Assembly (NCBI GenBank): GCA_019187225.1
Contig: JABAQQ010000024.1
Coordinates: 1 to 64,000 of the forward strand
Length of the DNA: 64,000 nucleotides
From: Saprospiraceae bacterium
GTDB taxonomy: Bacteria; Bacteroidota; Bacteroidia; Chitinophagales; Saprospiraceae
Direction: 5' to 3'
Part shown: positions 146 through 51,314 of the stretch, piece by piece
How the letters are laid out: every line of letters begins with the position of its first letter
Numbering within the stretch: position 1 is the first letter of the stretch
The notes under the pieces: generated by a model
The model's input: only the letters and a program-made list of their open reading frames with translations
Databases searched by the model: none
What the model was told of the DNA's origin: nothing
Program-made: the position numbers and the translations under genes

Positions 146-231
146 TAACCAAAAACTAACAACCAACAACCAATAACCAATAACCATTAACCAATAACCA
201 ACAACCAATAACCATTAACCATTAACCATCA
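146..231. repeat. Low-complexity AACCAATAACC-type repeat after the M48 gene stop
   Basis: About 86 bases made of degenerate 7-base units related to AACCAAT/AACCATT. On the minus strand, the coding strand of the protease gene that ends at 233, the repeat starts directly after the TAG stop as TTGATGGTTAATGG and continues G/T-rich. The same family recurs at 7802-7933 and, in the A/C orientation, at 38833-38891. It is not coding on the A/C strand, because the 7-base unit places TAA in every frame within 21 bases. Confidence 0.75.
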
Positions 232-232
232 A

Positions 233-1069
233 CTATTTCCCCTTCTTATTCTTCGAACTCGCCGGCACGGGGTACTGCCGGGCGTACGACCGTGCTTTCG
301 GCACCAGTTTCTTCAGATCCTGGCTGCGCTTGGACGGGTCGGGGTGGGTGCTCAGGAACTCCGGCGGGCGGCTGCCACCCGAACCGCTCATGCGCGCCCA
401 AAAAGGCGCGGCTTCGTCGGGATTATAGCCCGCCATGGCCATGAGGTAGAGGCCGATCTCGTCGGCTTCGGATTCATGTTTGCGGCTGAACGGCAACATC
501 ACGCCGACCTGCGCACCGGCGCCGGCGGCGGTCATCAGTATCTGTCGAGTGGCGGCGGGTTTTTGTGAGAGCGCCAGGTCGAGCGAAGTAAGGCCGAGTT
601 GGGCGATAAGTCCCTGACTCATGCGTTCGTTGCCGTGTTTTGCCAGGGCGTGGGCGATCTCGTGGCCCATGACGACAGCGAGGGCGTCTTCATTTTTCGT
701 CACGTTGAGAATACCGGTGTATACGACCACTTTGCCGCCGGGCATGCAGAAGGCGTTCACCGTCTTAGGGTCGTCCACGACGTTGAATTCCCACGCAAAT
801 TCCCTGAGTTCTGCTGCCTTGCCTTTCGAGCGGTAATAGACTTCCGTTGCGGCTTTCAGGTCATTGCCGACGCGGCGCACGAGGTCGTATTCCTTACCCG
901 ACGTCAGGGTCTTGCTTTGTTTAAGGAACGCGCGGTATTCGTCGTTGCTCAATTGATTGATCGTAGCGGAAGGTATGATATTCAGGGATTTACGCCCGGT
1001 GAAGACATTCTTCGTACAGGCGACAAGCAGGATCAGCGCGAAAAGGCTGAGCGAAATTTTTTTCCACAT
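233..1069 (-). CDS. M48 family zinc metalloprotease lipoprotein (LoiP/YggG-like)
   Basis: A 278-residue periplasmic or outer-membrane-anchored metalloprotease. Residues 1-17 form a lipoprotein signal with a lipobox ending at Cys18 (LLVAC). The zinc-binding HEIAH motif is at about 136-140, and the third ligand region ESEADEIG is at about 199-206, as in LoiP, BepA and Oma1 relatives. The small size and lack of TPRs fit the LoiP-type group involved in envelope protein quality control. The start at 1069 was chosen because it places the signal peptide at the N-terminus; the same frame is open up to 1144, but that extension is charged and unlike a signal. The stop codon abuts the repeat at 146-231. 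Confidence 0.9.
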   Translation of the reverse strand: MWKKISLSLFALILLVACTKNVFTGRKSLNIIPSATINQLSNDEYRAFLKQSKTLTSGKEYDLVRRVGNDLKAATEVYYRSKGKAAELREFAWEFNVVDDPKTVNAFCMPGGKVVVYTGILNVTKNEDALAVVMGHEIAHALAKHGNERMSQGLIAQLGLTSLDLALSQKPAATRQILMTAAGAGAQVGVMLPFSRKHESEADEIGLYLMAMAGYNPDEAAPFWARMSGSGGSRPPEFLSTHPDPSKRSQDLKKLVPKARSYARQYPVPASSKNKKGK

Positions 1070-4577: not shown

Positions 4578-4640
4578 TTGAAGGTAGAAGGTAGAGGGTT
4601 TATTACCTTCTACCTTCCACCCTCTACCCTCTACCCTTTA
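4578..4640. repeat. GGTAGAGGGTAGA-type inverted repeat between DUF177 gene and rpmF
   Basis: The interval between the two genes holds GAAGGTAGAAGGTAGAGGG followed about 20 bases later by the complementary ACCTTC/CCCTCTACC series, so the region can fold on itself. A related TAGAGGGTAGAGGG array is at 45113-45160. It sits inside a normally co-transcribed gene pair, so it would be part of the mRNA rather than only a terminator. Confidence 0.65.
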
Positions 4641-7802: not shown

Positions 7803-7933
7803 TTGGTTGTTCGTTATCAGTTATTGGTTATTGGTTATTAGTTATCGGTTATTGGTTTCTGGTTATCAGGCGCTAACTTTTAATAACCAACAACTTAGAA
7901 CCAAAAACCGGCAACCAGCAACCAACAACCAAT
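7802..7933. repeat. Large inverted repeat of GGTTATT units between padR and the PspC gene
   Basis: The left arm begins at the padR stop codon and consists of GGTTATT-like 7-base units (about 7802-7868); the right arm (about 7882-7933) is made of the complementary AACCAAC/AACCAGC units. The outermost 14 bases of each side, 7802-7815 and 7920-7933, pair at 13 of 14 positions. Same family as 146-231. Confidence 0.8.
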
Positions 7934-7960: not shown

Positions 7961-10147
7961 ATGAATAAGATACTGAATATCAACCTCGGAGGCTATGCGC
8001 TCACCATTGACGACGATGCCTACGAATACCTTACCGCTTACCTTGAAAGCCTGCGAAAACGATTCAGCGAAAGCGAAGGCCGCGACGAGATCGTACACGA
8101 TATCGAATCGCGACTCGGTGAGATCATCAGCCAAAGCATGGGCAACCGAACCATCGTGATGCTGCCCGACGTGGAAGCGGCGGTCGAGATCATGGGCAAA
8201 CCCGAAGATTTCGGCGGCGAGGGTGCGGTCGGCGGCAGTAGCAGTGGCGGTAGTAGCAGCAGCGGTCGCAAGGCCAAAGGAACGGCTACCGTGCGCACAG
8301 GCAAACGTTTGTTCCGCGATGAAGACGACGCCGTCGTGGGCGGCGTTTGTTCCGGCCTCACAGCTTATTTCGGCATATCCGATCCCGTGTGGATGCGGCT
8401 GATCTTTGTGCTGCTCACATTCCTTTCTGCCGGTTTCTGGATCCCGGCTTATATTCTGCTGTGGATACTGGTGCCTCCGGCTAAAACTGCCGCCGACCGG
8501 CTTGCCATGCGCGGCGAGCCGATCAACGTGGACAATATCGCCAGAGAGATCGAAGACAGTTTTGAGCGCATCAGCACCGAGTTCAGTTCACAAAAAAAAA
8601 GCGGCGACGGAAAAGACCGTAGTTTCAGCAACGCCATTTCGAGCGGCGTCTCGGTTTTAGGCCAAATGTTTGGCTTTGTTGTGCGTTTTATCGCCAAATT
8701 CGGCCTCATTATCGCAGCAATTGTAGCCATAGGGTTGTTCATTGCACTGGCGGTGTCCTGGGTGGCAGGCATTTGGGGGCTTCTGGTCGCGGCGCCGTTT
8801 GTGGATTATTTCAGTCCGTTTTCGAGCGGCGTCACCTGGCTCGGCTTCGCCAATATTTTCTTCCTGTTCGGCATTCCGATCCTCGGACTTAGTCTGATGT
8901 TCGCCCGTGCATTGTTTAAGTTTCGCACGCCCGGCTGGCTCGGAATGGTGCTGGGACTTTTCTGGACGGTCAATTTCATTTCGGCTATCGCGTTACTGAG
9001 TTTCGGCGCCAAAGGGTACCGAGCTGGCGGTACGGCTTCCAAAAACATCGAATTGGCGGGACTGAATTCCGACACCTTGCGCGTGGAAGGCACCAGGGCC
9101 AATGCGGACGGCGAATCTTTCTGGTGGTTCGATAATGAGGAAGAGTTCGTTGTTTTTGGCGACAAACAATTTGAGATCAGCGGTCTGGTGGAAATACGGG
9201 TGCGCAAAAGCGACGATGGCGTATTCAGGTGCACACAAGTGACCCGCGCGCGCGGCGCTTCCAACCGCGACGCCATTTCCAACGCCGAGCAAATTGATTT
9301 CCCGGTGACACTCGCCGGCAATACGCTCCGGGTACCTATTTCTTTCGGTATCCCGAACGGTCAAAAATGGCGCGGCCAGCATATCCGCCTGAACATCGAA
9401 GTGCCGGTGGGTAAAAGCATTGTTTTTGACGAAAAAATATACCGCCATGCGGCCGCTGACATGGAAGAATACGCCGACGACAACGACCGCAACTACATCT
9501 CGCGCTCGCCCGATAAAGTGTTTCGCATGACCGGACGCGGCCTTGTTTGCACCGGCTGCCCGCAATTCGGCGACAGCGATTACAGCAGCGACGAGTACTA
9601 CGAACACTTCATATTTGAAGGCAATTTTGAAACGGAAATGCGCCGGGGCAACGAATTCAAGATCCGCATCGAAGGCCCCGCCGACGCCATTGAAAAAATC
9701 CGCACCGGACGAAAACTCACCCTGAGCAAAAAAGGCAACGCCACCGGCGTGAAAGTATACATTGAATCGCCGGTGTTTACCTCATTGGTTGCCGACAACA
9801 CCGGTGATATTACCCTGCGCGGATTCGAGGAAGGAGACGCTTCCATCACGGTGAAAGGCTCCAACCGCATAAAAGCCTATGTGGATGTGTCCGACCTTCT
9901 GAATGTTTCTCTGGCAGGTAAATGCTCGCTCGAACTGGTAGGCGAAGGCAACAGAATGGATGCGAGCCTGAACGAAGGCGCCACTCTCGAGTCCATGAAC
10001 TGGCGCGCCAATGCCGTAGAGATCACTGCTTCCGCCGGATCGAACGCCCGCATTTACGCCAAAGACAACGCGCTCGTTATCAGCGACGCTAGCAGTCAGG
10101 TGCGGGTGGACGGCGGCGCCAGGATCCGGAATACGAGATATGAATGA
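7961..10147 (+). CDS. PspC-domain membrane protein with C-terminal head-GIN (DUF2807-like) region
   Basis: A 728-residue inner-membrane envelope-stress-type protein. Residues 1-90 form a conserved N-terminal cytoplasmic region common to Bacteroidota PspC proteins; a Ser/Gly linker (91-103) follows; the PspC domain is at about 115-175 (RLFRDEDDAVVGGVCSGLTA, with the first membrane helix). Further helices are near 235-262, 293-315 and 325-350. The C-terminal part, about 540-728, is rich in beta strands with a CTGC motif and resembles the head-GIN/DUF2807 beta-helix. The paired PadR gene upstream suggests regulation. Its TGA stop begins the nested repeat at 10143-10413. Confidence 0.88.
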   Translation: MNKILNINLGGYALTIDDDAYEYLTAYLESLRKRFSESEGRDEIVHDIESRLGEIISQSMGNRTIVMLPDVEAAVEIMGKPEDFGGEGAVGGSSSGGSSSSGRKAKGTATVRTGKRLFRDEDDAVVGGVCSGLTAYFGISDPVWMRLIFVLLTFLSAGFWIPAYILLWILVPPAKTAADRLAMRGEPINVDNIAREIEDSFERISTEFSSQKKSGDGKDRSFSNAISSGVSVLGQMFGFVVRFIAKFGLIIAAIVAIGLFIALAVSWVAGIWGLLVAAPFVDYFSPFSSGVTWLGFANIFFLFGIPILGLSLMFARALFKFRTPGWLGMVLGLFWTVNFISAIALLSFGAKGYRAGGTASKNIELAGLNSDTLRVEGTRANADGESFWWFDNEEEFVVFGDKQFEISGLVEIRVRKSDDGVFRCTQVTRARGASNRDAISNAEQIDFPVTLAGNTLRVPISFGIPNGQKWRGQHIRLNIEVPVGKSIVFDEKIYRHAAADMEEYADDNDRNYISRSPDKVFRMTGRGLVCTGCPQFGDSDYSSDEYYEHFIFEGNFETEMRRGNEFKIRIEGPADAIEKIRTGRKLTLSKKGNATGVKVYIESPVFTSLVADNTGDITLRGFEEGDASITVKGSNRIKAYVDVSDLLNVSLAGKCSLELVGEGNRMDASLNEGATLESMNWRANAVEITASAGSNARIYAKDNALVISDASSQVRVDGGARIRNTRYE

Positions 10148-10413
10148 TTGCGGATTGCGGATTTGGGATTGCGGATTGAACCCGTTTTGGCGTTCTGCAA
10201 AGTGATTACGGCAACAAATGCAATTGGCGACCTGTGCAACGAGCAATAACAGGAACGCGGGTAACACAAATCAAGCGGGTAGAAGAGGATTTTAAATGAC
10301 AATATCCGTAGAAATCCGCCCAATCCGTGTTATCTGCATTTCTATTATTGCTGGTCGCAACTATTGTAAATCTTATTCAATCCGCAATCCGCAATCCCAA
10401 ATCCGCAATCATC
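10143..10413. repeat. Nested inverted repeats filling a convergent intergenic gap
   Basis: The outer arms are (ATTGCGG)n-type repeats at 10143-10180 and 10376-10413, in opposite orientation. Inside lies a second element, about 10235-10350, made of AATAACAGGAACGCGG and a partly complementary AATCCGCCCAATCCGTGTTA half; a close copy is at 30513-30628. The arms reach into both stop codons: both converging genes end TGA followed by TTGCGG or TGATTGCGG. Confidence 0.8.
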
Positions 10414-11179
10414 AAACCTGTTCTCCCACCAGCCATTTTTTGAACTCTGCGGAGCGTTCTGTGCTAACGATGGTTTCGAGGTCGGTCGAAGGTTCGAGTT
10501 CCACTTTGACCCTGCTTTTGGAGTAGGGGTGCATTTCTTTGATGGCCGCCACGTTGATGATAAACTGGCGGTTGATGCGGAAAAAGGCGGCCGGGTCGAG
10601 CATTCCTTCCAGTTTGTCCAGCGGATAGTCAACCGGGAAACGTTTGCCCGTGCTTCGGGAGACGAGAAATGTGATCTTGTCCTTTGTGTAGAAATAAGCC
10701 GCATCCGCCATGTCCATGAGTTTGATGCTGTTGCCGAAACGGATGAGCATGCGACGCAGATAATTCTGCCCTTCCTGTTTGCGCAAAGTGTCGAGCAGGG
10801 CCGAATAATCCTGTGCGGCGCTTTTGAATACACGTTTGTATTTGTCGAGGGACGCTATCAGCTCGTTGGTTTTGATGGGTTTGAGCAAATAATCCACTGC
10901 ATTTACTTTGAAGGCCTGCAGAGCGAACTCATCGTAGGCAGTAGTAAAAATGATGGGGCATGTAACCGTGACATGATCGAAAATTTCAAAACTCGAGCCG
11001 TCGGCCAGGTGAATGTCGAGCAATATCAGGTCGGGTTGCGGGTTGCTTTGCAGCCAAAGGACTGAAGTCTCCACACTGTCTAAACGCTGGAGAACGACGG
11101 CTTCCGGAGCCACCTCAGCCAGCAGTTTTTCGAGACGGCGGGCGGCGGCATTTTCGTCTTCGATAATCAGAATTTTCAT
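10412..11179 (-). CDS. LytTR family response regulator
   Basis: A 255-residue two-component regulator: an N-terminal receiver domain (MKILIIEDENAAARRLEKLL; phosphoacceptor Asp in LILLDIHLADG near residue 57; conserved Lys in YLLKPIKTNE) and a C-terminal LytTR DNA-binding domain (about 150-250, with FFRINRQFIINVAAI). Its gene is 74 bases after the LytS-type kinase at 11254-14139, the likely partner. The start at 11179 fits the receiver fold; 18 upstream in-frame codons are rejected. Confidence 0.94.
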   Translation of the reverse strand: MKILIIEDENAAARRLEKLLAEVAPEAVVLQRLDSVETSVLWLQSNPQPDLILLDIHLADGSSFEIFDHVTVTCPIIFTTAYDEFALQAFKVNAVDYLLKPIKTNELIASLDKYKRVFKSAAQDYSALLDTLRKQEGQNYLRRMLIRFGNSIKLMDMADAAYFYTKDKITFLVSRSTGKRFPVDYPLDKLEGMLDPAAFFRINRQFIINVAAIKEMHPYSKSRVKVELEPSTDLETIVSTERSAEFKKWLVGEQV

Positions 11180-24246: not shown

Positions 24247-24261
24247 GCGCGAAAGGTAAAA

Positions 24262-24368
24262 AGGTTTACGGGTTTGCGGGTTGACGGGTTTACCGGTTAA
24301 GAAATAGAACGGATATGTTGTTAACCCTGCAGACCCGTCAACCCATTAACCCGTAATACCGTAAACCT
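24262..24368. repeat. Inverted repeat of GGGTTGACGGGT type
   Basis: Two pairs of arms: AGGTTTACGG at 24262-24271 pairs with 24359-24368, and GGGTTGACGGGT at 24278-24289 pairs with 24333-24344. It lies between the REC-LytS gene and the divergent secreted TonB-C gene. No open frame is seen. Confidence 0.75.
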
Positions 24369-24499
24369 CTTGCCAATCCACCTCCAGTTTTTCCCCCTTC
24401 ACTTCAGAATACGTTCGTGCTCACCTCCAAATGCTGGCGCAGCTGCCACAGCCTGCGATAGGTTTGTCCTGTCAAACGAAACCAAATCAACATACTGCC

Positions 24500-30512: not shown

Positions 30513-30628
30513 TACAACGCGATAATAACAGGAACGCGGACGACGCGGATCAGAGGGATAAAAGCGGAGTTTAATCCGCGAAAATCCGCCTCATCCGCGT
30601 CGTCCGCGTTCCCATTGTTACCGGGTTA
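30513..30628. repeat. Inverted repeat of GCGGACGACGCGG type, second copy of the element at 10235-10350
   Basis: Arms AACGCGGACGACGCGGATCA (from about 30532) and the complementary TCATCCGCGTCGTCCGCGTT (ending 30610) enclose a 40-base loop. Flanking AATAACAGG and CATTGTTACC also match the copy at 10235-10350. It fills the gap between convergent genes. Confidence 0.78.
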
Positions 30629-37072: not shown

Positions 37073-37415
37073 GTGCGAGAGGTGGTTTTGTTGTTTAAAC
37101 TGCTTTGAAACGAAATAGTTTGAACACAAAAATGCACTCTTTTGCACAATCGCACATTCAAGCATACTTTTCCGTACCTTCGCGCCGACACAGAATCCCT
37201 CAAACAGCGCAGTCATACCTGACTCTCCATATAAAAGGCAGATTTCTTTCGCCGCAAGATGGTCTGACGATTTTTAATTTGGAATATTTACGGAGCATTT
37301 TCGGCACCGTTCGTCTGACCGCAATGAAGTCAAATAGCGCAGTGCTGTTGACGGAGGTTTTGTGTATCCCATGCTAGACACAGGCGTCTTTCGTGGGGTT
37401 TCGTCGGCACAAAAC
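37073..37415. other. Divergent intergenic region between queD and holB
   Basis: A 343-base gap. I see no open frame or RNA gene that I can support. It contains a candidate promoter (37141-37172) for holB and A/T-rich sequence before queD. The holB frame is open into it up to 37362, but those codons have no family match. Confidence 0.55.
37141..37172 (+). promoter_or_regulatory. Candidate sigma-70 promoter upstream of holB
   Basis: TTTG at 37141-37144 is separated by 20 bases from TACTTTTC at 37165-37172, one mismatch to the Bacteroidota -7 consensus TAnnTTTG. Transcription would begin near 37179, giving a long leader of about 235 bases before the chosen holB start. Confidence 0.4.
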
Positions 37416-38567
37416 ATGGTTTTCAGCGACATTATCGGTCAAAACAGGACAAAATCGTTCCTCGTACAACTTGCCCAAAGCGAGCGCATCCCTCATGCCC
37501 TGCTTTTTCTGGGGCCGACGGGCAGCGGCAACCTGGCATTGGCCGTCGCATTCGCCCAGTTGTTGCAGTGCGAAAACCAACCCGCAATCCGCAATCCGCA
37601 ATCCGAAATCAACAATGCCTGTGGCGAATGCCCGGCATGCCGCAAAGCCGCTCAATTCGCACACCCCGACATCCATTTTTCTTTTCCAACCGTAGGAACC
37701 AACGCCGTTAGCACAGAATACCTGAAAGAATGGCGTGCCGCCTTGACCGAAAACCCCTACATGGATGTGAATATGTGGCTCCAACGCCTCGGCGCGGAAA
37801 ACAAACAGGGCAATATCACAAAAGAAGAATGCAACGCCATCATCAAAAAATTAAGCCTTAAAGCCTTTGAAGGACGGTACAAGATACTTGTGATGTGGCT
37901 GCCCGAATATCTCGGCAAAGAAGGCAACCGCTTGTTGAAACTCATCGAAGAACCACCTGAACAGACCATTTTTTTGCTCGCCGCCGAAAATCAGGATATG
38001 ATCCTGAATACCATTCTGTCGCGTTGCCAGTTGGTGAAAACCGGCTTTTTGAGCGATGAAGAAGTGATGGGTGGCCTCCTGCGAAAGCGCAGCCTCGATG
38101 AAAACCGCGCCCGTCAGATCGCGTTTTTAGCCGATGGCGATTTCAATACGGCCCTTCAGGTAGCCGACAACCCCGAAAACGACGACGCCCGCCTGTTGCT
38201 CGACTGGTTGCGCAAATGCTGGCGCGGCAATGGCGTGGAACTCGTAAAATGGACGGAGGAATTCGCCAAACTCGGACGCGAAAACCAAAAGCAATTCCTC
38301 CATTACGGCCTGCATTTTTTGCGGGAGTTGATGGCGCTCGTAGTAGCCCCCCCGGGCTCCCCCATGAGGGGGGCGGAGGGGGCCCGCCTTCGCCCCGAAG
38401 AACTCGCTACCGCTCAAAATATGGCGAAAGTGCTTGATTTTGAAAAAATAGCGCATTTGGTAAACCTTTTCAATGACAACATCTACTACGTGGAAAGAAA
38501 CGCTAACCCAAAAATCCTGTTTCTGGACACTTCGATTCAAATGAACCGCATTTTAAAAAGTGCCTGA
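37416..38567 (+). CDS. holB: DNA polymerase III delta' subunit (clamp loader), carrying two in-frame repeats
   Basis: A 383-residue AAA+ clamp-loader subunit. The degenerate P-loop GPTGSGNLALA (33-43; Asn replaces Lys as in inactive delta' subunits) and the zinc-binding cysteines (Cys69, 72, 75: ACGECPACRKAA) identify it. IEEPPEQTIFLLAAENQDMILNTILSRCQ (quoted in parts) is the usual sensor region. Two segments look inserted: QPAIRNPQSEIN (residues 55-66), coded by a 7-base repeat also present in ribE, and PPGSPMRGAEGARL (residues 312-325), coded by a G/C-rich palindromic repeat. Start at ATG 37416 (MVFSDIIGQ). It overlaps the next gene by 8 bases. Confidence 0.93.
   Translation: MVFSDIIGQNRTKSFLVQLAQSERIPHALLFLGPTGSGNLALAVAFAQLLQCENQPAIRNPQSEINNACGECPACRKAAQFAHPDIHFSFPTVGTNAVSTEYLKEWRAALTENPYMDVNMWLQRLGAENKQGNITKEECNAIIKKLSLKAFEGRYKILVMWLPEYLGKEGNRLLKLIEEPPEQTIFLLAAENQDMILNTILSRCQLVKTGFLSDEEVMGGLLRKRSLDENRARQIAFLADGDFNTALQVADNPENDDARLLLDWLRKCWRGNGVELVKWTEEFAKLGRENQKQFLHYGLHFLRELMALVVAPPGSPMRGAEGARLRPEELATAQNMAKVLDFEKIAHLVNLFNDNIYYVERNANPKILFLDTSIQMNRILKSA
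37581..37613. repeat. (CCGCAAT)n repeat inside holB
   Basis: Three to four 7-base CCGCAAT units in frame within holB (CCCGCAATCCGCAATCCGCA and the following ATCCGAAATC). The same family occurs as the arms of the intergenic repeat at 10143-10413 and inside ribE at 44894-44945. Confidence 0.85.
38347..38385. repeat. G/C-rich palindromic repeat inside holB
   Basis: A nearly self-complementary stretch CCCCCCGGGCTCCCCCATGA followed by GGGGGGCGGAGGGGGCCC. It is coded in frame as PPGSPMRGAEGA. The composition (almost only C and G with one ATGA) differs strongly from the surrounding holB DNA. I recall similar CCCCGGGCTCCCCATGAGGG elements in intergenic regions of other Bacteroidota. Confidence 0.8.
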
Positions 38568-44469: not shown

Positions 44470-45105
44470 TCACTTGTACAAGGCGAGGTAACGGGAAATG
44501 TATTTTCCGAGAATATCGAATTCGATGTTCACTGCATCGCCTTCCCGCAGGGTTTTGAAGTTGGTATGCTCCCAGGTATAGGGGATGATGGCCACGGAAA
44601 ACAAGTCGTCGCGCGGTTCCACTACCGTGAGGCTGACGCCGTTAATACATATGGAGCCTTTGTCTACCAGCAGGTGTTCGGGTGTGGGACGGTAGCGGAA
44701 TGTGAATCGCCATGAGCCCCCTGTTTCCGCGACTTGCACGCATTCGGCAGTATCGTCTACATGACCTTGCACAATATGGCCATCGAGGCGGCCTCCGATG
44801 GGCAGGCAGCGCTCCAGGTTTATGAATGACCCAATGACCCAATGACTCAAATTCGTTCTGCGCAGGGTCTCTTCCACTGCTGTTACGCGATGGGCGGAAA
44901 TTGCGGAAATTGCGGATTGTGGATTGCGGATTGCGGATTGCGGAGGTTCGAGACCGACGACGGTGAGGCAAACCCCATTGTGGCTCACACTCTGGTCAAT
45001 TTTCAGTTCGTGCGAAAGAGGGCTTTCAATCGTGAAATGGACGTTGGAGCGGTCTCGTTCGATGGCTTTGACGGCGCCAAGCGCTTCTATGATTCCTGTG
45101 AACAT
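44470..45105 (-). CDS. ribE: Riboflavin synthase alpha chain with in-frame repeat-derived segments
   Basis: A 211-residue riboflavin synthase, which dismutates two 6,7-dimethyl-8-ribityllumazine molecules. Both lumazine-binding repeats start canonically: MFTGIIEALGAV and, in the second, KGSICINGVSLTVVE; the first repeat has NGVCLTV. Between LTVVGLE and ETLRRTNL, where related enzymes have about 14 residues, there are about 28, including PPQSAIRNPQSAISAISAH, encoded by the CCGCAAT repeat. TNLSHWVIGSFINLE replaces the usual TNLGDLKVGDWVNVE-like segment and is coded by a GTCATTGG repeat without length change. See findings. Confidence 0.9.
   Translation of the reverse strand: MFTGIIEALGAVKAIERDRSNVHFTIESPLSHELKIDQSVSHNGVCLTVVGLEPPQSAIRNPQSAISAISAHRVTAVEETLRRTNLSHWVIGSFINLERCLPIGGRLDGHIVQGHVDDTAECVQVAETGGSWRFTFRYRPTPEHLLVDKGSICINGVSLTVVEPRDDLFSVAIIPYTWEHTNFKTLREGDAVNIEFDILGKYISRYLALYK
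44824..44851. repeat. GTCATTGG-type low-complexity repeat inside ribE
   Basis: On the ribE coding strand the bases repeat GTCATTGG, read as SHWVIGSF. This resembles the loose GTCATT family found intergenically at 26318-26356, 27790-27890 and after the NarL gene. The coding length is normal for the family. Confidence 0.6.
44894..44945. repeat. (CCGCAAT)n repeat inside ribE
   Basis: Units of CCGCAAT and TTCCGCAA on the ribE coding strand, same family as in holB and the nested repeat at 10143-10413, read as PQSAIRNPQSAISAISA. It is an insert of about 14 residues compared with E. coli-type riboflavin synthase. Confidence 0.85.
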
Positions 45106-45112
45106 GTGGGCG

Positions 45113-45160
45113 GTAGATGGTAGAGGGTAGAGGGTATATGGTGGACGGTGGACGGTGGAG
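45113..45160. repeat. TAGAGGGTAGAGGG / GTGGACGGTGGACGG tandem repeat
   Basis: Two short tandem stretches between ribE and aroB: GGTAGATGGTAGAGGGTAG and GTGGACGGTGGACGGTGG. Related to the repeat at 4578-4640. On the minus strand it precedes ribE and follows aroB. Confidence 0.6.
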
Positions 45161-51091: not shown

Positions 51092-51227
51092 CCACCGGTA
51101 AATCGGTGGGTTGAGTGTCCAAAGTCCTCAGGACTCCCACCGGTAAATCGGTGGGTTGAGTGTCCAAAGTCCTCAGGACTCCCACCGATAAATCGGTGGG
51201 TTGAGTGTCCAAAGTCCTCAGGACTTT
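51092..51227. repeat. 45-bp tandem repeat, three copies, upstream of the methyltransferase gene
   Basis: Three copies of a 45-base unit start at 51092, 51137 and 51182. Each holds the near-palindrome CCACCGGTAAATCGGTGG, the spacer GTTGAGTGTCC, and the perfect palindrome AGTCCTCAGGACT. A unit is 15 codons (DTQPTDLPVGVLRTL on the minus strand), so the frame stays open in the gene's own direction. The copies differ by single bases. Confidence 0.88.
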
Positions 51228-51238
51228 TTCATTTCAGC

Positions 51239-51314
51239 CCACCGATTTATCGGTGGGGCATGGATCGGTGGGGCATGGATTGGCGGGGCATGGATTGGCG
51301 GGGCATGGATCGGT
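51239..51314. repeat. Palindrome and 15-bp tandem repeat after the ABC ATPase gene
   Basis: CCACCGATTTATCGGTGG at about 51239-51256 is a fourth, inverted version of the palindrome in the 45-base unit. It is followed by four copies of a 15-base unit, GGGGCATGGATCGGT or GGGGCATGGATTGGC, starting at 51255, 51270, 51285 and 51300. Confidence 0.82.

Follow-up and report, generated by a model that had tools for sequence, protein, structure and literature searches.

In-frame heptad repeat arrays in holB and other genes of a Saprospiraceae bacterium

The holB gene of this Saprospiraceae bacterium contains two in-frame repeat segments, and the first of them belongs to a large set of arrays of seven-base (heptad) units dispersed through the genome. 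We consider it probable that heptad-armed repeats spread genome-wide and that selection retained the intragenic survivors in tolerant loops. The absence from the examined relatives, the genome-wide dispersal, the arm polarity, the depletion in genes and the frame neutrality were observed directly. The window mentioned below is the whole stretch of 64,000 nucleotides that was analysed.

The holB gene is located at 37416..38567 (+ strand), and its ORF is extendable to a GTG at 37362. Its product matched the Pfam family DNA_pol3_delta2 (2.4e-36), and its best NCBIfam match was TIGR00678 holB at 138 bits, under the model cut-off of 180.6. Judged by this domain, the zinc-ribbon cysteines and the orthologue alignment, the identification as DNA polymerase III delta' is sound, as the sequence-only reading had proposed. 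The first segment is a CCGCAAT heptad array of 4 units at 37581..37609 (+), with the sequence CCCGCAATCCGCAATCCGCAATCCGAAAT and the C-rich strand as the sense strand. It lies between zinc-ribbon Cys 1 and Cys 2 and is translated in frame, one further base included, as PAIRNPQSEI. The second is a GC-rich palindrome at 38347..38385 (+) in the C-terminal linker, with the sequence CCCCCCCGGGCTCCCCCATGAGGGGGGCGGAGGGGGCCC, and is translated in frame as PPGSPMRGAEGA. Re-reading of the sequence and its translation confirmed both segments at these positions and in frame.

The holB comparison set comprised 34 same-genus orthologues, 29 from the first search and 5 added. A strong HolB match was found in 32 other same-genus genomes, of which 29 loci were aligned and G010, G011 and G036 were left out. 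One row (L206, from G003) covers the linker only, and rows L101–L107 mostly repeat genomes counted before. A recount showed that the CCGCAAT unit (sense strand), an array of it and the GC-rich palindrome were present in 0 of the 34 orthologues, and the expectation that the segments are absent or variable in relatives thus held for both. Lone ATTGCGG words were found in 2/34, and short C4..G4 matches of different sequence in 3/34. The zinc-ribbon loop has 16 residues here and 7–39 in 29 relatives. The linker at the second site has 9 residues in 28 of these 29, 16 here and 15, with a different sequence, in G025.

The same zinc-ribbon loop holds other inserts in the genus. G020 carries a four-unit array of a different heptad word, AAAACTC. 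In G025 both holB places hold different inserts, and its loop ends in AACTATC/AACCACC-like units (by eye, under the scoring cut-off). The loops of L037 and L202 contain two AATATCCC units each (by eye). Because loop and linker lengths and inserts differ among relatives, both holB places look tolerant, and the first one appears to have been hit by different words; "tolerant" here refers to length variation in the alignments. The extra loop length of several relatives consists of non-heptad sequence, which counts against the spread of heptads as the explanation. In the G020 loop (L049), the CG.C motif of the relatives reads LETC. A contig titled Thermoanaerobaculia MAG.385 (L105) carries a Saprospiraceae-type holB with loop and linker identical to those of L203 (G062), and is perhaps a binning contaminant.

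The genome search showed that CCGCAAT arrays occur genome-wide, both in and between genes, as the sequence-only reading had anticipated. The 17-mer ATCCGCAATCCGCAATC of the holB word had 174 matches in the 7.18-Mb genome and 0 in the reversed control, with overlaps within an array counted apart. Period-7 arrays of many words numbered 122 in 1.664 Mb and 0 in one 200-bp block-shuffled copy. These two comparisons exclude chance for the heptad array. The array census sample (23% of the genome) was non-random and consisted of contigs C1–C4 and C8, the last being the contig of the window. When periods from 4 to 15 were tried, period 7 was the most numerous, followed by its multiple 14 (98). Two further arrays in the window are an AACCAAT array at a gene edge (147..233, +) and an ACCGTCC-type array (45112..45159, −) that lies immediately before the start of ribE. 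An Rfam search of the window gave no family at the gathering threshold.

The distribution of words among genomes is patchy. The CCGCAAT word was found in 3 of 41 other same-genus genomes (G062, 45 matches; G022, 8; G024, 3). Among 395 genomes drawn from the class, counting this one, 10 had it, one of which (G355, 21 matches) also has 16 control matches. For the ACCGTCY word, 1,009 matches were counted here, and 13/41 of the other genus genomes have it, with one control match, in G025. Different words were seen in the relatives sampled, such as the AGTTATG and GCAAGAG types of G034. The CCGCAAT word was also found in 97 IMG/VR stretches against 12 for the reversed control, and so recurs elsewhere.

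Repeats of other kinds were seen beside these arrays. At 24249–24373 the window contains an imperfect inverted repeat with GGGTTTACG/GGGTTTGCG-like units and a period near 7–8. At 51092–51314, three tandem 45-bp units with a small hairpin precede four units spaced at 15 bp (ATCGGTGGGGCATGG). Elsewhere in the genome, dispersed palindromic repeats of other kinds, about 90% alike, lie beside heptad arrays.

The position of the 122 arrays was determined with gene calls from a simple codon-based caller (1,201 genes, 84.5% coding). A total of 73 were intergenic, 28 were at gene edges and 21 were inside 18 ORFs. The density was 15 arrays per Mb in coding DNA versus 392 in non-coding DNA with edges counted, or 283 with edges left out. 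Coding DNA was therefore poorer in arrays by about 26-fold, or 19-fold without the gene-edge arrays. The 21 intragenic arrays measure 26–89 bp and comprise 3.7 to 12.7 units of differing words, with 14/21 under 6 units. A Pfam scan of 17 of the 18 array-bearing ORFs, holB included, matched a family in 17/17; the CHAT/TPR ORF lay outside the scan and was assigned its name by inspection. Among the families matched are UvrA, RibE (Lum_binding), MurF-alanine racemase, a UvrD-type helicase, methylmalonyl-CoA mutase, PEP carboxylase, TruB, an FGGY kinase and lycopene cyclase. The C-rich strand was the sense strand in 18/21 intragenic arrays (p = 0.0015), compared with 42/72 of the non-ORF arrays between same-strand genes (Fisher p = 0.02).

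An artefact of assembly or binning might be suspected, since repeats are error-prone and a single assembly was used. The assembly has 73 contigs, 100% completeness and 1.84% contamination, the 21 intragenic arrays lie in open frames, and other species have different inserts in the same holB and uvrA loops. All of this speaks against an artefact, which we regard as barely conceivable.

Insertion was checked against orthologues for three genes, namely holB, ribE and uvrA. The ribE gene for riboflavin synthase (44470..45105, −; Pfam Lum_binding 1.1e-44) contains the second intragenic array of the window. This CCGCAAT array (44909..44944, −) is translated in frame as PPQSAIRNPQSAI and was absent from 27/27 orthologous sequences of 26 genomes; in this set G061 has two sequences and G006 has no RibE match. 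The array adds 15 residues in a turn, where a few orthologues have other, mostly shorter, extensions. For UvrA, the alignment comprised 27 relatives' loci (L112–L138), with L139 and L140 left out and L129 without the loop. The loop was short in most of the 26 relatives that have it. The remaining array-bearing ORFs probably carry insertions too, given the presence of the array and their Pfam family.

The reading of a heptad array does not depend on the frame. As 7 and 3 share no common factor, the three frames of one strand of an array all encode a single heptapeptide, and a script check gave an identical peptide in every frame for 13/13 words tried. CCGCAAT is translated as AIRNPQS in the sense direction and ADCGLRI in the antisense direction, and ACCGTCC as HRPPSTV and DGGRWTV, all stop-free; AACCAAT and some other words have a stop in one sense. 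With a period-7 array readable in any frame, only the net length modulo 3 is left to selection. Because this frame neutrality and ordinary selection on net length suffice, no frame-aware process is needed. The sequence-only reading had suggested a process that inserts or grows repeats in coding DNA with conservation of frame, and the 21 arrays within intact ORFs would fit it. Intact ORFs, however, were the sampling criterion of the array census, so that out-of-frame cases were invisible to it. Moreover, the coding depletion of about 26-fold runs against an insertion process for coding DNA. We consider such a process highly improbable, and the suggestion was not upheld. AACAACC, AATGTCC and AACGTCC are stop-free in both senses, yet were inside ORFs in 0/20 cases, which the preferred model of spread and selection does not explain.

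The word occupying a given site is not constant and varies among species or paralogues. The UvrA loop has inverted ACGGTGG arms in G000 and G031, GGGTTGA/GGGTTTA arms in G033 and AACCAAC-type units in G007. The HolB loop has CCGCAAT here and AAAACTC in G020. Among CHAT-type paralogues, one site holds a GATTGGG array, an imperfect GATTGCG array or none, and a near-identical paralogue pair of an HTCC gene has the array in both copies. Either in-place homogenisation to new words or repeated hits on a tolerant site would produce such differences. Self-BLAST of the flanks gave no clean empty site in the same genome; the paralogues found were about 70–80% identical, and in them the array was shared, altered or missing. 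Neither an exact pre-insertion site nor a target duplication was obtained, which counts against the spread model.

The array in holB is a lone C-rich array; heptad repeats elsewhere are mostly intergenic and often consist of G-rich heptads, a loop and C-rich heptads. The region 10143–10413, which had been described as an intergenic copy of the first holB repeat, proved to be an inverted pair of the same arrays. Its G-rich arm is at 10146..10178 (−) and its C-rich arm at 10378..10412 (+), and it is flanked by convergent predicted genes (7961–10147, +; 10412–11179, −). Two further heptad hairpins, with no strand assigned, are found in the window: one of the ACCCTCT family at 4580..4637 (G-arm 4580–4599, C-arm 4604–4637) and one of the AACCAAT family at 7813..7932 (G-arm 7813–7864, C-arm 7906–7932). 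A long imperfect palindrome at 30516–30627 has 75% identity over 51 nt with the hairpin interior at 10179–10376.

The arm polarity was counted with a relaxed cut-off (185 arrays) and neighbours within 600 bp. Of 29 opposite-strand neighbours, 26 had the G-rich arm first and 3 were reverse, the latter with gaps over 400 bp; 6 neighbouring arrays were on the same strand. The 26 G-first pairs had a heptamer common to both arms in 21 cases and a gap under 100 bp in 21 cases. Six sampled relatives gave 13 hairpins with the G-arm first, 0 reverse and 3 same-strand pairs, where 10 of the 13 came from G034, sampled further after its first arrays were seen, and 2 were the UvrA arms known earlier. By eye, the G-rich arm was first in 5/5 close opposite pairs in G062 and in 3/3 in G414, of another family of the class. 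In 80 of the 97 IMG/VR loci, at the relaxed cut-off, there were 26 G-first, 8 C-first and 22 same-strand pairs, and the ratio of 26 to 8 indicates a weaker polarity there. By eye, some arms in G034 adjoin an inner palindrome common to several hairpins. The hairpin interiors of G000 look mutually unrelated, likewise by eye, which speaks against a transposon with a fixed core.

These results bear on a purely local birth of the holB array, in which replication slippage grew a short coding seed without spread from elsewhere. Work cited in PMC4679880 proposed slippage for heptanucleotides, and the variable length of the holB loop in the genus and the short repeats of G020, L037 and L202 at this place are in keeping with it. 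Slippage alone, however, does not yield G-arm-first inverted pairs. The 174 matches of the holB word here, in a genus where so few other genomes carry it, and the lack of even a single CCGCAAT in holB of the 34 relatives are further points against a local birth, and we think it unlikely.

That the arm polarity recurs gives a strong hint at the mechanism. One speculation is a telomere-like process in which both 3′ ends at a chromosome break gained G-rich heptads and were then joined, as at fused telomeres, and which left the polarity seen with unrelated words and in several species as a scar. We hold this to be very unlikely; if it were true, telomere-like hairpins landing in frame in loops would have become new protein sequence in HolB, UvrA and RibE. 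A related proposal, that a telomerase-like reverse transcriptase (RT) adds G-rich heptads to 3′ ends at breaks, would also give the order G-arm, loop, C-arm from joined ends, and fits the polarities of 26 to 3 and 13 to 0. In addition, DRT10 RTs synthesise tandem-repeat DNA from an RNA template (PMC12632851).

Three RVT_1 genes were found in the genome (L108, L109 and L110), with arrays at one locus (two arrays, score at least 10). The RT at L108:1291–2340 is group II/DGR-like; in PADLOC a generic RT model matched it best, with 167 bits, and RT_UG17 came second with 122 bits. UG17 is a candidate class named in the introduction of the DRT10 paper (PMC12632851), and this match is in favour of an RT. 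L109 carries a retron-like RT (ORF 1330–2358, under NCBIfam cut-offs), with a CCGCAAT array at 1281–1313, 17 bases upstream of the gene, and an AAAATGG array at its end (2357–2381). The upstream array also favours an RT, and this locus gave the one positive result among the Y1 transposase and RT loci of this genome. The short hairpin repeats AACCGCGAAGCGGTT and CCCCGGA..TCCGGGG are located further upstream. L110:1285–2735 is a diversity-generating retroelement whose RT adjoins avd (NCBIfam DivGenRetAVD 98 bits, above cut-off).

That the two RTs other than L108 are retron-like and avd-adjoining, respectively, tells against an RT origin, as do the many words side by side in one genome. Arrays were found at only 2 of the 16 RT loci fetched in relatives, and the other 14 had no array at a score of at least 12. 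No RVT_1 match was found in the word-rich genomes G060, G028 and G010, which are only 76–86% complete. Across the genus, the presence of RVT_1 and that of the ACCGTCY word do not go together. An RT origin was set aside on these grounds and kept as a rival of very low probability. For Y1 transposases, 2 of 3 matching loci were fetched and contained no arrays, and a RAYT/REPIN link is unsupported there.

Under the preferred reading, genome-wide spread followed by selection, heptad-armed hairpins would be copied to new sites, perhaps through a single-stranded hairpin stage like the one suggested for REPINs. Individual arrays would subsequently grow and become uniform by slippage and conversion, with the sites kept and the words differing from species to species. 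An intragenic insert would survive only in a tolerant loop, when stop-free and with a net length divisible by 3, and purifying selection would remove the other intragenic inserts.

The GC-rich palindrome is rare. With up to 2 mismatches, it was found in 3 places in the whole genome versus 1 for the reversed control, so that a sequence search on its own barely separates it from the control. A strict C5..G5 pattern in the 1.66-Mb sample found holB and two copies, which form a pair with inverted ends (by eye) in a glycosyltransferase-like ORF (C2:355341–355477). Two further places, on C20 and C15, lie in long ORFs that also have heptad-like peptides (by eye). The four copies besides holB are all in ORFs. 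Relaxed patterns gave mostly unrelated intragenic matches. The palindrome looks MITE-like in its sequence, the likeness being the inverted ends of the glycosyltransferase-like ORF pair. The long palindrome-bearing ORFs of L237 and L236 contain several heptad-type peptides, such as NPKSEIRNPKS; as these ORFs hold several repeat types, inserts may cluster in certain genes.

Repeats of related kinds have been published. Rehm et al. (2015) described heptameric G-rich repeats in Xanthomonas and Nostoc that are mainly intergenic and under-represented in coding regions, with 70 convergent inverted pairs in Xcc, 75 in Xac and few in Nostoc, and with a repeat type usually preserved between the two Xanthomonas species (PMC4692102). 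Like the arrays here, they have period 7 and are found genome-wide, and the pairing itself is therefore known; we take the orientation of the Xanthomonas convergent pairs as G-arm first. The differences are one word type per genome (GGGAATC; GGGGA(C/T)T) versus many here, and in the available text of that paper neither an orthologue-checked in-frame insertion in a core gene nor a word change at a fixed site was seen.

TAACTGA heptamers have been reported in Beggiatoaceae, Cyanobacteria and five Bacteroidetes (MacGregor 2015, PMC4679880). They are likewise heptad direct repeats, patchy by taxon, with other heptamers alongside, and according to work cited in that paper, heptanucleotides outnumber every other class of long repeat in most genomes. 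In BOGUAY, 25 ORFs contain or overlap TAACTGA sets, including MurG (at the end) and an RNA polymerase beta'-like ORF, and PurC of F. litoralis (Bacteroidetes) has two units near its end. The forward TAACTGA word has stops in all frames, the in-ORF cases named in the available text are mostly peripheral, and one inverted pair is given. In contrast, the arrays here lie in the interior of many recognised enzymes, and pairs are common.

Rickettsia palindromic elements are also palindromic repeats found in frame in unrelated genes, but they form families of about 150 bp, each with a conserved peptide (PMC10969869). The heptads here are short arrays of changing words without these two properties. 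The analogy drawn in the sequence-only reading holds in concept, with in-frame inserts in holB, uvrA and ribE, and fails in size and peptide conservation for the heptads. The GC-rich palindrome, with five copies known here, is nearer in kind to the Rickettsia elements than the heptads are. REPINs, which are dispersed inverted doublets that form hairpins, with singlets as remnants, resemble the repeats here (Bertels and Rainey 2011, PMC3116915); REPIN arms have one conserved sequence, in place of the tandem heptads with their many words in the arms found here.

The remark that no mechanism had been described for these families is partly incorrect, as heptamers, inverted pairs and some in-ORF cases are in print (PMC4692102, PMC4679880). 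No mobilising enzyme was linked to the repeats at the Y1 transposase loci fetched here, which counts against the spread model. A topic search of the open-access literature, not made by the letters CCGCAAT, found no in-frame heptads in Saprospiraceae. Of the features already in print, which include convergent pairs, the isolated heptads within ORFs limit the novelty (PMC4679880). The colonisation of many core genes and the word turnover look new.

Through these inserts, short and mostly non-coding repeats become new peptide segments in replication, repair, cofactor and cell-wall enzymes. Period 7 offers a simple reason for this coding use, as every frame gives one peptide. The genus, with 42 genomes searched, is a natural series with different words at the same sites, in which hairpin birth, spread and turnover are testable.
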